Assembly: GCF_015169395.1 (NCBI RefSeq) | Contig: NZ_CP063458.1 | Coordinates: 1,054,001 to 1,118,000, forward strand | Source of the DNA: Humisphaera borealis | Lineage (GTDB): Bacteria > Planctomycetota > Phycisphaerae > Tepidisphaerales > Tepidisphaeraceae | Length of the DNA: 64,000 bases | Direction: 5' to 3' | Part shown: one piece after another, positions 45,555 to 51,375 of the stretch | Layout: each line of letters begins with the position of its first letter | How positions within the stretch are numbered: position 1 is the stretch's first letter | Made by a program: the position numbers and the translations under genes | Notes under the pieces: model-generated | The model's input: only the letters and a program-made list of their open reading frames with translations | Told to the model about the DNA's origin: nothing | Databases searched by the model: none

Positions 45555-45786
45555 TCTTCGGCTCCCCTCGGCCTCCCGATGTCGGGCAACCCGTTCGCGC
45601 AACCCGTTCAGGTAAGGTGTCGGCCAATACGTCCTCCGATTCCCCGCTGCACACCCGACTCCAAACGCCAGCCCGGAGCGCGGTAGCCGAATAGCCGCAA
45701 AGCAAAGATCGCCACAAGGTTGCGGCAGGCCCCCGCTTTTCGTATCCTTGGAGGTCCGTCGGAAACGGCGACGGCAACTTTTTTTT

Positions 45787-45869
45787 GGCCTCATGGCGGA
45801 ATTGGCAGACGCAGTGGATTCAAAATCCACCGCCCCAAAGGCGTGAGGGTTCGAGTCCCTCTGAGGCCA
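45787..45869 (+). tRNA. tRNA-Leu (anticodon CAA)
   Basis: The acceptor arms GGCCTCA and TGAGGCC pair, followed by discriminator A; CCA is not encoded. The anticodon stem GTGGA/TCCAC closes the loop TTCAAAA, with anticodon CAA at 45821-45823. The variable arm is a short class II stem (CGCC...GGCG), and the T-arm is GAGGG-TTCGAGT-CCCTC. The 83-nt gene is intact. A tyrosine integrase gene reads into its 3' half on the other strand, so it is the likely attachment site of an element. Confidence 0.95.
45820..45869. other. Putative attachment site (attL) in tRNA-Leu 3' half
   Basis: The last 16 codons of the integrase gene (MASEGLEPSRLWGGGF) are the antisense of the tRNA-Leu 3' half. Integrases of tRNA-targeting islands lie next to the site they use, and the 3' half of a tRNA is the usual crossover. 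I could not find the matching direct repeat (attR) within the window. Confidence 0.55.
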
Positions 45870-47127
45870 TCCTAACAGAATGCGAACTTTCGCACTCCGT
45901 CGCAACCGCTGGCACGCCAGCGGTTTTTGCGTTTTGCGGCCAGGCGTTTTGCGAGGTGTTTCCAGTCGATTCTCGGCCGGGCTGCGCTGGTTTTTGCGCT
46001 CCCGGTTCGGTCATTTGGGCGGCACGTTCGTAGTGCTGGTCGGTCACCTGAAGGTAGTGGTCTTTCGCCACGTCTTCGGAGTTGCCGAGCCACTGGCACA
46101 CGACGTGGCCGGGGAAGATCTCGCAAAGTTCCGTCTGCCGTGTCGCTCGCAGATTGTGAAAGAGTCGCGGCCATGGTTCGACGTCGGCAACGTCGATGAT
46201 TCGCATCAACTGCGTCCGCAGATTGCTGTTGGGATTGCGATAGCGGGTGATGACGAACTCCGAGCCTTCCGATGCATTCTGAAACACTTCCAGCAGGTAG
46301 CGTTTGAGCTCGGGGAACATCGGAATGACGCGGGTTCCCTTGTTGCTGTAGTGCTCCGTCTTGGGCGCGTGGACGAGAATGCGTTCGCGATCCCAGTCGA
46401 TGTCGCCCCACCGCAGGCCCAGATGCTCGGACGGACAGCGCAGCCCGCCGTAGCGGCTTAGCGCGAAGATGAGCCGCCATTCGGCGTCGGGACAGGCGAT
46501 CAACACCTTCTGCGCGACTTCCTGGCTGATGAAACGTTTGCGGGCATCGTTCTTCTGGGAGCCGGCCTTCACGTCCTCGAAGGGATTCTCAGGGATCAGC
46601 TTCCACTTGACCGCCTTGCGGAAGAAGTGGCGGCAGGTCTTCACCCGGCGACTGAGCGTGGCCTCGGCAAGACCCTTCGCCTTCTGCGCCTGTCGCCACT
46701 CGTCGGCCTCGAGTGGCCCGATGGTTGCGATGTCGCGATCGGCGCCGAAGTAGGCGACGAGGTCACGCCGAACCTGACGGTAGGCGGTCTGTGTACTCAG
46801 CTTGATGTCGAGCGAGCCGAGCCACTTGTCGAACATCTCGCCGAGTGCTCCCGTGCGTTTGGCTTCGGATGCCGCCGGTGCGATAAGTCCCTTGGCTTCC
46901 AGTTTCGTGCGCAGCGGGCCTTCCAGTTTGGCGACCCACGTCGCCGTGGCGTCGTCCACGGGGCGATTCTGTTTCAGGGCTGACAGGAGCGATTCGATCT
47001 TATCCATGAATCGCTCGGCGTCGCGGCGCGGCATCTTGCCCGGTCGGATGGTCTGTCGGCCGGATACGCCCGGCCGAAAGAACTGGATGTGCCACAGGTT
47101 GTCACCGTCTTCAATTAAGCTTGCCAT
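45820..47127 (-). CDS. Tyrosine recombinase / site-specific integrase
   Basis: A 435-residue phage-type integrase of the kind common in planctomycete islands. The core-binding domain lies at about 95-180 (MFDKWLGSLDIKLSTQTAYR). The catalytic domain has R in SRYGGLRCPSEHLGLRW, H-x-x-R in LFHNLRATRQTEL, and the nucleophile Tyr near the end in KDHYLQVTDQHYERA. The last 60 residues are low complexity and then antisense tRNA. The start MASLIEDGDNLWHIQFFRPG is 51 bp downstream of the HTH gene stop, so the two form an operon. It marks the boundary of an integrated element. Confidence 0.93.
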   Translation of the reverse strand: MASLIEDGDNLWHIQFFRPGVSGRQTIRPGKMPRRDAERFMDKIESLLSALKQNRPVDDATATWVAKLEGPLRTKLEAKGLIAPAASEAKRTGALGEMFDKWLGSLDIKLSTQTAYRQVRRDLVAYFGADRDIATIGPLEADEWRQAQKAKGLAEATLSRRVKTCRHFFRKAVKWKLIPENPFEDVKAGSQKNDARKRFISQEVAQKVLIACPDAEWRLIFALSRYGGLRCPSEHLGLRWGDIDWDRERILVHAPKTEHYSNKGTRVIPMFPELKRYLLEVFQNASEGSEFVITRYRNPNSNLRTQLMRIIDVADVEPWPRLFHNLRATRQTELCEIFPGHVVCQWLGNSEDVAKDHYLQVTDQHYERAAQMTEPGAQKPAQPGRESTGNTSQNAWPQNAKTAGVPAVATECESSHSVRMASEGLEPSRLWGGGF

Positions 47128-47178: not shown

Positions 47179-47400
47179 TCACGCGGCCAGCACGCTGGCG
47201 GGCCGAGTTTTGGCACGTTCAACGAACGCAATCAGGTCGGCCGGGTCGAATCGGACCGAACGCCCGATCTTGACGGCGGCAAGCTCGCCGCGGTCGACGA
47301 TGGTCCAGAGGGTCCGTGGCGAGATCGCTAGGAACGTGGCGGCCTCGCGGCTGGACATCAGTTTCTGCATGGGTCGGATACTGTTCTCGAGTAATCGCAT
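47179..47400 (-). CDS. Excisionase-like helix-turn-helix protein
   Basis: A 73-residue MerR-type winged helix protein. MSSREAATFLAISPRTLWTI followed by VKIGRSVRFDPADLIAFVER is the usual excisionase/DNA-binding domain (HTH_17). The ATG at 47400 has AGAGGA upstream; an internal ATG at residue 11 is less supported. It lies directly upstream of the integrase on the same strand, so it probably controls integration and excision of the element. Confidence 0.85.
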   Translation of the reverse strand: MRLLENSIRPMQKLMSSREAATFLAISPRTLWTIVDRGELAAVKIGRSVRFDPADLIAFVERAKTRPASVLAA

Positions 47401-48840
47401 GTGGGCATCCTCTCACACTTTTTGGTGCTGAAAAGGGTCGAGTGAGTCCGCGCCATGCAAACGACCACAGCAAGGTTCGAAGGTATTTTTACGAACTTCA
47501 GCCGCTGCCGCCAAGGGCGGAGGAATAGTTCGAGTGGGGTCTTGAACGCCTCGGTTCGCAGCTTGAAGTCGGCGATTGCGGTGGTCGATCAACGTACTGA
47601 GTTCACTTTCGGATCTCGGTGGAAGTCGATCGGACCAAATCAAAATCCGTGCCAGATCTCGTTCCGTAAGCGCAGGGCATTGGAGGCGCGCTATGGGGCG
47701 GCAACTTGGACTTACCCCTGAGCGCATTGACCACCACCCAGCGCGGAACGGTCGTGGCGACGGCATGCCGACAGCGCCTAAGTTGAGGTCTTTTGACTCG
47801 GTCGCCTGTCTTGTGATGGCGCAAGAAGTGTTCAGTTTTTCGGGGTTCAGAGATCCGTGTTCCTGGCATGGCCATTCGATTCTGGTGGTAGGCAATCCGG
47901 TGTTCGATATCGTGACTGTAGCGGACGCTACCAAAGTCTTCGACGGATGCAGCGTCCACATCCATCAGTCTCTCGATAATCCTCATGTGTGATCTGTCTT
48001 TTTCGGTTTGACGAGTCCGTATGGAGTATTCGGGAACCCGCCGAACTGATCGGTGTCTCCCTGCCTGGCCTCACAATCACTTAGCGTCTTCCGGCACCCA
48101 CGCCGGATGCTTACTCCGTCTCCTTCGGCTGGCGCAACGCGGAGTGGGTATCTCAGGTAGATTCTGTGAGTCCCGCCAATTGACTGGTAGCGATGGAACG
48201 GCGCGTGCTGAAGTGCAGCAGCACCGCTCGTCACAAAGACCTATCCAGAGGCCCAGTAGTCCGTTGGGTCTGCGCCAGCGCCTGCGATCGCACTGCCAGG
48301 CACGACGATGTACTTGTCGGTTGTTCCTGCTTCGGCCGTCGTGGATGCCGTCACCGAGACGCCGGGAATGTCACCAACTCGCAGGAAGCGGCAAAATGAC
48401 TTAGGGGCGCTATTAGCGCTTTGCGCCCCTTCAGTAAATCCCTTAGCGCGCCTCGAATGCCGTTCTTTTGGCCATCCAGAGCCAAATTGTTTTTCTTTCT
48501 TTCTTCATCCTCTCGTCAAGTTTGAACATGACGATGCCGCCTTTTGGTTGCGCGCGGGGCGGAGAAAGAGGCACGATGTGTCGCGAACCGGCGTTCGGGA
48601 TGACTGCGCGCGATTCGCCGAAACAATCGCAGAGGTCGGCAGAAGTTTTTTCCGCCCTGTTCGCAGTCGAGCGCTCTGCGACGAACGGCCTCGATCTGGC
48701 GATGGCGGAGAAATGAATCGGGCCAGGGTGGGAGGTATGGTTGTTCGTCGCCCATGGACGCTATAGCTTGGCAGACTTCCTTCCGCCGCTCCGCGTGATG
48801 CTCACACTCTCGGAAAACGATGAAACCTTGGCACGACGAC

Positions 48841-48873
48841 CGAGATGGCTGAGATGTCCGAGATGGCGAGGCT
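48841..48873 (+). repeat. Short GAGATG-type tandem repeat
   Basis: Three imperfect copies of a nine-base unit (GAGATGGCT, GAGATGTCC, GAGATGGCG) follow directly after one another. They lie 25 bp upstream of the CACACCT array, and may belong to the same control region. Confidence 0.5.
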
Positions 48874-48895
48874 CCCACGTCTCTCCGGTAGATGA

Positions 48896-49127
48896 CACAC
48901 CTTCTCACACCTTTCCCACACCTCCCGAAGAAAGGTCATTGAGCGCAAACTCTTGTTTTGTCTGGAATAAGGACTTCAATACACACCTTCCACATCTTTT
49001 CAAAGATCAAAGAGGAAGTAAAAGAGTAAGTATCTATATGGGGTAACATGGGACCCAAAAAAAGGTATTCAAGGTGTGGGTGAACAGCGTAACTCTCTGC
49101 CCAGCTGAAGCTTCGACGTTCACACCT
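48896..49127 (+). repeat. CACACCT iteron-like array in an AT-rich pocket
   Basis: CACACCT occurs at 48896-48902, 48906-48912 and 48917-48923, that is with starts 10 and 11 bp apart (one helical turn), then at 48982-48988, as its complement AGGTGTG at 49072-49078, and again at 49121-49127. The interval between is AT-rich for this genome (for example ATAAGGACTTCAATACACAC). Phased repeats beside an AT-rich stretch are what replication or partition control regions of plasmids and integrative elements look like. No replication gene is adjacent, so function is inferred only. Confidence 0.55.
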
Positions 49128-49318
49128 CCTCGCGAAGGTGCGTCAAAGGTGGAGATGTAGGTCAGTGGACGTTGGTCAACCCAGGATTGGACAGCGGCCC
49201 GGTCGTTCCCCATCTCTTCCCCCGCCCTCGCGGCTCCCACTATGTGCTGCGGTGATTACTGACCTTGCGGAGCGCCTGTGGCCAGCTGACGCGGCTGGAA
49301 CGACTTCTTGGGTCAGAA

Positions 49319-49543
49319 TCATGGTACCTTGAGCAGCAAAGCCCATCGCTCTTTCTGCGCCTCATAGGCTAACGTCCATTCACCAGGGGCAGCCTGACAG
49401 CGGGCATCACGATAATGCTCCGCCAACCGCAGCGGTTCTTTTGAGGGGCAGATCAATTCGGTCAATGGCGGGCCGTCGGCTACGAGACGCATCGTCGGAA
49501 GCGATGCAAGTAACGTGGGACTGATCTTCAGGGGAGCGCTCAT
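49319..49543 (-). CDS. Small hypothetical protein
   Basis: A 74-residue frame, MSAPLKISPTLLASLPTMRL, with a balanced composition and the aromatic-rich ending WTLAYEAQKERWALLL. There is no clear ribosome site and no family I recognise. Among the many frames of the island it is one of the more protein-like, but it could be chance. Confidence 0.3.
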   Translation of the reverse strand: MSAPLKISPTLLASLPTMRLVADGPPLTELICPSKEPLRLAEHYRDARCQAAPGEWTLAYEAQKERWALLLKVP

Positions 49544-50240
49544 AAAAACGGTGGCCTCGATACAGGTCTGGTCGGACGTTCCCGACCTTGAACATTGCGG
49601 CCGGATGCGCAGTCAAGCGTTACGGCATCTGGCTCGTACTATTTACCGGGTTAAGAATATCCTTCACCCCACGATTACGCCTACGAAACGGGGAGCTGGG
49701 AACATCCGACCGGTATCTTCAAAGTCCGCGTGAGGTGCCAATTCGCGGCGTGCAGCCGAATCAGATTAGCCTCTGTGCGGAGCGGAGAGCCGGAAGGCTT
49801 AGCGCGCCCCGCGTGGTGATCTGCGTGAGTTCGACCCCGCCTCTTACCCTTCTTCCCTCCGCCGATGGAAAGCCATGCCCTGATGACCTGCGGTCGTGCC
49901 GTACATGGCGGCCGTGTAGCTCGGTCGCAAACCAAGCCACGACGTAATAAGCCCTCGGAGACCGCACGATTGGCGTTCCGGCCGCGACACCAAGTGGACC
50001 ATCGCACTGAGCACCTGTGACTGGAGAACGCGCGGCCTCCAAAACTCTCCTGAGCCATCTCGAGCATCATGCCCCTGCCGCGAGCGCTTGGACCAACCGA
50101 ACCGAGAACGGACGTCCAGTGATAGGTGATGAACAGCGATAAATCCGCACGGTGGTCACTTTCCGGGCGTGATCCTTCGACACTTTCTGCGCCATCGCGA
50201 TCACAGCCCCATTTCCCCGTCCGACCTCAATCCATGAAGG

Positions 50241-50272
50241 AAGGCATTGGAACATCAATGTCCCAATGCCTT
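50241..50272. terminator. Long stem-loop in the island
   Basis: AAGGCATTGGAACA (50241-50254) pairs with TGTCCCAATGCCTT (50259-50272), a 14-bp stem with one mismatch and a four-base loop. It is far from any confident gene, so it may be a terminator of a lost gene, or a structural element of the island. Confidence 0.4.
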
Positions 50273-50560
50273 CGTCGTGATCCCAGTCTGAGTTCTCGTT
50301 CAGGTCCACCCCACACCTATCGCGATGGACGTCGCCGTTCGGGACTGTTGCTCCAAGACGTCTGATGATTCTGGCGGCTCGATCAACTCGCAGATGCTTC
50401 TGTCTTCCTCCCCTCCGCCGATTGCCGCGCGATTGATCCAAGAACAAAGATCGTACTTTGCCTGAGGTATGCGTATCAAAAGTCACTTCGACAAAGCGAT
50501 CCGTCGATTGGCGAAAGAACAGGCTCGAAAGTGCGAGTTCCTGCCATGGCATGCGACGCA

Positions 50561-50846: not shown

Positions 50847-51375
50847 ATGAGGCCGAAAGGGAGTTCGGCGGTTCTGGAACAGCGACGCCGCGACGCGCTG
50901 GCCCTGCTGAAGCAGGGCATGAAGCCCGCCGCCGTCGCCAAGACGTTGCGCGTGTCGCTCGTGTCCATCGGTCGCTGACGGCAACTCGCGTCCGGCGGAG
51001 GAACCAAAGCGTTGGCGGCGAAACCGCAATCAGGTCGTCCGCCGAAGCTCGATGCGGCGAAGCGGAGCAAGATTGCCGGCCTGCTTCTGCTCGGGCCGAA
51101 GCATCACGGCTTCGATAACGACCTGTGGACACTGGACCGGATCGCACAAGTGATCCAACGGCACTTTTCGGTGAGCTACCACCCGAGCCAGGTCTGGCGA
51201 ATCCTGCTCTCGATCGGCTGGTCCTGCCAGAAGCCGCAGCGTCGGGCCAGGGAACGCAACGACGATGCGATCGAGCACTGGCGGCGAGCCGTCTGGCCGC
51301 GCATAAAAAAAGGCGCGAAAACACGTCAAAAGCGTGCTGTTTCTCGATGAGACGGGCCTGATGCTCCAGCCGTAA
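50847..51375 (+). pseudogene. IS630-type transposase remnant
   Basis: The N-terminal part of an IS630/Tc1-type transposase. It begins MRPKGSSAVLEQRRRDALAL with a helix-turn-helix (MKPAAVAKTLRVSLVSIGR). An in-frame TGA at 50976-50978 follows where relatives usually have Trp. The frame then continues KPQSGRPPKLDAAKRSKIAG and VWRILLSIGWSCQKPQRRA. A frameshift near 51320 moves reading to the frame of SVLFLDETGLMLQP, which holds the first Asp of the DDE triad, and a TAA ends it at 51375. The C-terminal half is absent. With three lesions it is dead. Confidence 0.75.

Follow-up and report, generated by a model that had tools for sequence, protein, structure and literature searches.

A phased CACACCT array in a tRNA-Leu island of Humisphaera borealis, a candidate relic of an iteron-type replication origin

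Six copies of the heptamer CACACCT lie close together in an AT-rich part of an integrated island of Humisphaera borealis. Are they what is left of a replication origin, the sites of a cooperative operator, or a short word that has accumulated by chance? We analyzed a stretch of 64,000 nucleotides around them (the window, to which all positions refer unless another locus is named) together with related genomes, viral contigs and bacterial chromosomes. We regard the array as a candidate relic of the iteron-type replication origin of an integrative element, a reading whose chances of being right or wrong we judge to be evenly balanced. We found little on the replication of planctomycete integrative elements, and the phased CACACCT array gives two unrelated tRNA islands a candidate origin that can be tested.

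The repeats coincide with the AT maximum of the window

Exact copies of CACACCT start at 48896, 48906, 48917, 48982 and 49121 on the forward strand and at 49072 on the reverse strand. The sequence-only reading had described five direct copies and one inverted copy within 48896-49127, the first three starting at intervals of 10 and 11 bp, or one helical turn, and this description proved exact. The whole 64-kb window holds eight copies, six of which are in the array and the remaining two far off (5420 and 50312). One-mismatch copies extend the array, and a 19-nt dyad (79%) joins 48982-49000 to 49060-49078 with an AT-rich centre in between. The parts of the array are as follows.

48896..48923, forward strand: phased triple of CACACCT (starts 48896, 48906 and 48917)
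48924..49071, no strand: AT-rich pocket, 61.5% AT, from its composition a candidate DNA-unwinding element
48982..48997, forward strand: fourth CACACCT (48982), then one-mismatch CACATCT (48991)
49072..49078, reverse strand: inverted CACACCT, an arm of the dyad around the AT-rich centre
49121..49142, no strand: last direct CACACCT (49121) facing a degenerate inverted AGGTGCG (49136)

No other 7-mer cluster in the window is as large as this array. (The second-densest, at 449-652, consists of ACAAGTG, AACTAAC and overlapping words in five copies each.) Third-order Markov simulations of the window gave a maximum of 5 copies of any 7-mer per 232 bp, in two of 60 runs, and dinucleotide shuffles of the 232 bp themselves gave at most 4 copies of any 7-mer (3,000 trials) and at most two of CACACCT (5,000 trials). 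In a 492-kb control from the same genome, some 7-mer reached six or more copies per 232 bp at 12 places, approximately one per 41 kb. Since such clusters are fairly common in real genome sequence, the CACACCT cluster alone is not exceptional, and the evidence from the repeats is weaker than the random models imply. It is the coincidence of the copies with the AT peak, rather than their number, that sets the array apart. The AT-rich interval noted from the sequence alone is real: the pocket of 61.5% AT at 48924-49071 overlaps the stretch where the AT content of the window peaks (62.8%; runner-up elsewhere in the window, 54.1%), and 61.5% was not reached by any of 24,432 control windows of 148 bp, drawn from about 0.5 Mb of the same genome.

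These results bear on the view that the copies have no function and are either a tandem repeat that has decayed or a chance cluster among pyrimidine-rich, non-coding gene remains. The frequency of comparable clusters (about every 41 kb of genome) is what that view would lead one to expect, as is the location in pseudogene debris that shows no conservation in relatives; it accounts poorly for spacers that differ, for copies on both strands over 230 bp, and for their bracketing the sole pocket of such AT content in about 0.5 Mb. We consider it unlikely. A simple tandem repeat was rejected because there is no constant unit that includes the spacers, which are unequal within the triple (TTC and TTCC) and longer between later copies, one of which is inverted. 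The short-spacer triple occurs once in the 7.19-Mb genome. The genome's only other CACACCT pair, at 5.27 Mb (L003), is at an ORF end beside an unrelated element and was judged to be chance. We also rejected a chromosomal origin, as there was no cluster of DnaA boxes and only a single weak box with one mismatch, and an RNA element, as Rfam gave the tRNA only and the DNA fold of the array was not significant (z -0.27). The array DNA was not found again in the genome, nor in any of 60 relatives, and searches for homologues of the region returned none in phages and the IS630 part only in plasmids.

The array lies in a decayed element at tRNA-Leu

The surrounding island carries the following features.

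45786..45872, forward strand: tRNA-Leu (CAA), the insertion site (ARAGORN, Rfam)
45820..47127, reverse strand: tyrosine integrase, 435 aa (Pfam Phage_integrase, 9e-9)
47179..47400, reverse strand: excisionase-like HTH_17 gene, 73 aa (Pfam HTH_17, 4.6e-11; PHROGs excisionase)
48019..48258, reverse strand: Phage_BR0599 phage tail-assembly fragment (Pfam 3.1e-10, PHROG_778)
48403..48545: block also found in sibling island L058, with 61 bp at 82% and palindrome TCGTCAAGTTTGAACATGACGA (blastn E 1e-8, collinear order)
50267..50490, forward strand: possible AEP-like primase remnant with in-frame stops (tblastn E about 0.001)
50847..51374, forward strand: IS630-type transposase remnant with in-frame stops

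The integrase gene overlaps the 3' half of the tRNA, runs leftwards and is free of internal stops; tRNA-Leu, integrase and HTH_17 gene together form the left end that is usual for tRNA-integrated elements. Just after the tRNA, 48 bp (45882-45929) with a terminator-like inverted repeat match a site at 526.7 kb of the genome at 96% (L059:6686-6733). Two further elements of the same genome, at tRNA-Arg (L057) and tRNA-Tyr (L058), have integrases that are 57-58% identical, and the catalytic columns R230, K256, H324..R327 and Y358 are invariant among these siblings. The product of the HTH_17 gene has a 60% amino acid match in L058. Short collinear matches between the window and L058 occur at 47635, 48403-48462, 48514-48545, 50378-50419 and 50453-50490, and the palindrome TCNAGTTTGAACATGACGA has good matches genome-wide only in the window and L058. 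A second copy of the tRNA 3' end, which would mark the right attachment site, was not found in the window or the next 12 kb, and there is no intact replication gene within the island. With neither found, the element is probably now dead.

The last two collinear matches (E 1e-4 and 1e-3) fall inside the 533-aa AEP-TOTE-like primase gene of L058, and the translations can be compared (window LDQLADASVFLPSADCRAIDP, L058 LDRLTEASVFFPSALHRLIDD). The trace, a short one with E about 0.001, was missed by a three-member family profile, so we take it only as a suggestion of a decayed AEP-like primase approximately 1.1 kb to the right of the array. The earlier statement that no known replication gene is adjacent thus stands for intact genes and is qualified by this decayed match. 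The initiator lost from the element was possibly this AEP-like primase module.

The left side of the array, with its direct copies, and the right side, with a degenerate pair whose members face each other, recall multi-site ends; even so, we think it highly improbable that the array is a transposon end or a partition (parS/centromere-like) site, as the region yielded no ParA/ParB, no resolvase and no transposase from a multi-site family, and the IS630 remnant is 1.7 kb away.

The sibling elements differ from the window in the array region. L058 has an intact AEP-like primase, yet no CACACCT array. Relatives of this primase have other words in L217 and none in L218, and none was found among viral contigs. 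L057 is a prophage with a terminase and an AAA_25 helicase; a CACACC-rich hairpin directly follows its AAA_25 gene, and a window-type array is absent. A peptide-pattern search of viral contigs found no relatives of this AAA_25 protein. The AAA_25 helicase, the large terminase subunit and the integrase of L057 lie within about 10 kb (L057:1627-10062) that has few structural genes, and the element is possibly a satellite or a shortened prophage. AAA_25 genes of the same genome comprise the prophage gene at 1.83 Mb and three other matches elsewhere, none of them in the tRNA-Leu island. That the word is not conserved within the integrase family is expected of fast-changing iterons and equally of a chance cluster.

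A second tRNA island has phased CACACCT beside replication genes

Among 198 relatives, five genomes had phased CACACCT triples. Besides the window, one of the examined triples was in an island, a tRNA-Val-integrated element of genome G082 (L265) with four copies at spacings of 23, 10 and 10. An HTH_17 gene starts 45-100 bp downstream of this array, and an O-like replication initiator, with a DnaC-like helicase loader after it, lies about 500 bp downstream of the array. (An Eco57I-type methylase is further out from the array and replication module, in 3123-9000 of L265.) The G082 integrase is distantly related to that of the window (25% over part), and the only relative of the O-like initiator in the 198 genomes was one weak match (G185), which had no array nearby. 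The expectation that phased CACACCT would recur in other islands was borne out in G082, at 10-bp spacing, and failed in the same-genome siblings. As a separate observation, another planctomycete genome (G110; L034, L037, L039-L051) has many dispersed tandem CACACCTTT arrays, with at least 24 matches.

Phased direct repeats are typical of cooperative operators, and the position of the G082 array ahead of an HTH_17 gene is that of an operator. The main rival to an origin is accordingly that the window array was the cooperative operator of a lost promoter, bound by a phage-type repressor or the HTH_17 regulator. Several points are at odds with this: no promoter-like site was found at 48400-49800, the start of xis is 1.5 kb from the array, an operator does not require an AT maximum, and in the phage relatives described below the array is 3' of a gene rather than ahead of one. 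On balance we find an operator rather unlikely.

AAA_25 helicase genes of phages are often followed by arrays

We searched 2.9 million viral contigs for triples of CACACCT spaced by 10-11 bp and obtained 18 stretches. An AAA_25 replication helicase gene was found 5' of the array in six of them; the gap is 33-65 bp in four (L118, L119, L123 and L127), 574 bp in L122 and 854 bp in L128. A further stretch, L135, has its array just 3' of the end of a VapE-like gene. The composition-matched control word CCTACAC also gave 18 viral stretches, none of which had AAA_25. In bacterial chromosomes at large, one of 55 triple-bearing stretches had AAA_25 beside it and most were plain tandem repeats. The 10/11 spacing of the window was found again in L118/L144 and, with the different word GGTGAGG, in L149-L157. 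The suggestion that the copies are arranged like iterons or cooperative sites gains from their helical phasing, from their position at the flanks of the AT-rich pocket and from the arrays beside replication genes in phages and G082, and loses from the lack of arrays in the sibling islands.

The association extends beyond this word. At least four copies of some 7-mer were present within 300 bp after the stop codon in 18 of 38 non-redundant AAA_25 genes, a figure that is slightly inflated by the five genes that had entered this otherwise largely word-independent sample through CACACCT arrays; the corresponding frequency in 1,175 control windows was 3.4%. The words vary from phage to phage (AGGTGTG, AGGTGAGG, GTGTAAA, CTACAAA, AACGAAA, AGTTCCG and others), and a short GC hairpin centred on TATA or TACG is found repeatedly directly after the AAA_25 stop (L144-L211, L119, L122, L123 and L127). 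After many planctomycete AAA_25 genes there is a hairpin together with a conserved ACCCCCCAYACCCCCC-like motif (L057:2880-2960, L201, L203, L188-L197, L208 and L210).

The AAA_25 proteins of L144 and L147 are 92% identical, and their iterons read GGTGTG and GGTGAG, respectively. The differences between the proteins cluster in the last 100 residues, likely a winged helix, and include a change from RTGR to RQGR. As judged from these sequences, this suggests that the C-terminal winged helix of the AAA_25 helicase may read the iterons. The natural pair makes the specificity of initiator for iteron testable by computation and binding assays. We found no description of a link between AAA_25 and 3' iteron arrays in the literature, most subscription papers being outside the search, and its novelty is uncertain. 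This link is a more useful outcome than the window array, which is itself modest.

A model for the array and comparison with known island origins

We favour a relic origin for the window array, whose anatomy has counterparts in published island origins (SGI1, SaPI and SCCmec); the int-xis context at tRNA-Leu, the phased copies around the AT maximum, and the phage and G082 arrays also speak for it. Cooperative binding of an initiator encoded by the element to the CACACCT iterons would have come first, the copies of the 10/11-bp triple all facing the same side of the helix. After excision, the AT-rich pocket between the iterons would have opened, and the replication machinery would then have been loaded at the opened pocket. 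We infer the iteron binding, the origin function and the identity of the initiator, which is lost here. More tentatively, and with doubts that outweigh our confidence, the array may be what remains of a member of a large class of origins, in phages and islands, whose element-encoded replication helicase, often AAA_25, would use its C-terminal winged helix to read fast-diversifying phased iterons beside its gene, word and reader co-evolving like an incompatibility code. Such a class is not described in the papers that we found.

Like the features of an iteron origin, the array has short direct repeats in helical phase and an AT-rich region between repeats; where an adjacent initiator or helicase gene would be expected, there is no intact gene and a short primase trace approximately 1.1 kb off. 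As an adjacent initiator gene is a defining feature, we do not place the array in the AAA_25-linked class or in a named origin family; at best it would have functioned in the manner of an iteron origin. The phage AAA_25 arrays (L118, L119, L123, L127, L128 and L144-L157) resemble it in having CACACCT in several cases, a 10/11 triple, inverted copies and a dyad. They differ in being always beside an AAA_25 gene and in having a GC-rich CCCCTATAGGGG-type hairpin; the window has neither, the centre of its array reading only ATCTATATGGGG, with no CCCCTATAGGGG-like hairpin core. The G082 island shares with the window integration at a tRNA and phased CACACCT, there at 10-bp spacing, and is set apart by an unrelated integrase and by having an HTH_17 gene and an O-like/DnaC-like module directly downstream of its array.

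The iterons of SaPI and SCCmec are directly downstream of the helicase gene, and the SCCmec Cch2 origin has three 5-nt iterons (PMC7581432). The window array is similar in its short iterons, which in SaPI and SCCmec are read by an element-encoded initiator helicase beside the replication genes of the integrated island; unlike them, the window island is without an MCM-like Rep/Cch helicase and has no adjacent helicase. In SGI1, oriV is between rep and xis, downstream of rep, and has iterons and AT-rich regions (PMC7433901); the intact rep is directly adjacent and the iterons are four GC-rich 17-bp repeats (PMC7433901). The window differs in its 7-bp word, its six copies and a replication gene that is lost or left as a trace. 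Like SGI1 oriV, it combines iterons with AT-rich regions in an integrative element, on the xis side of the replication gene.
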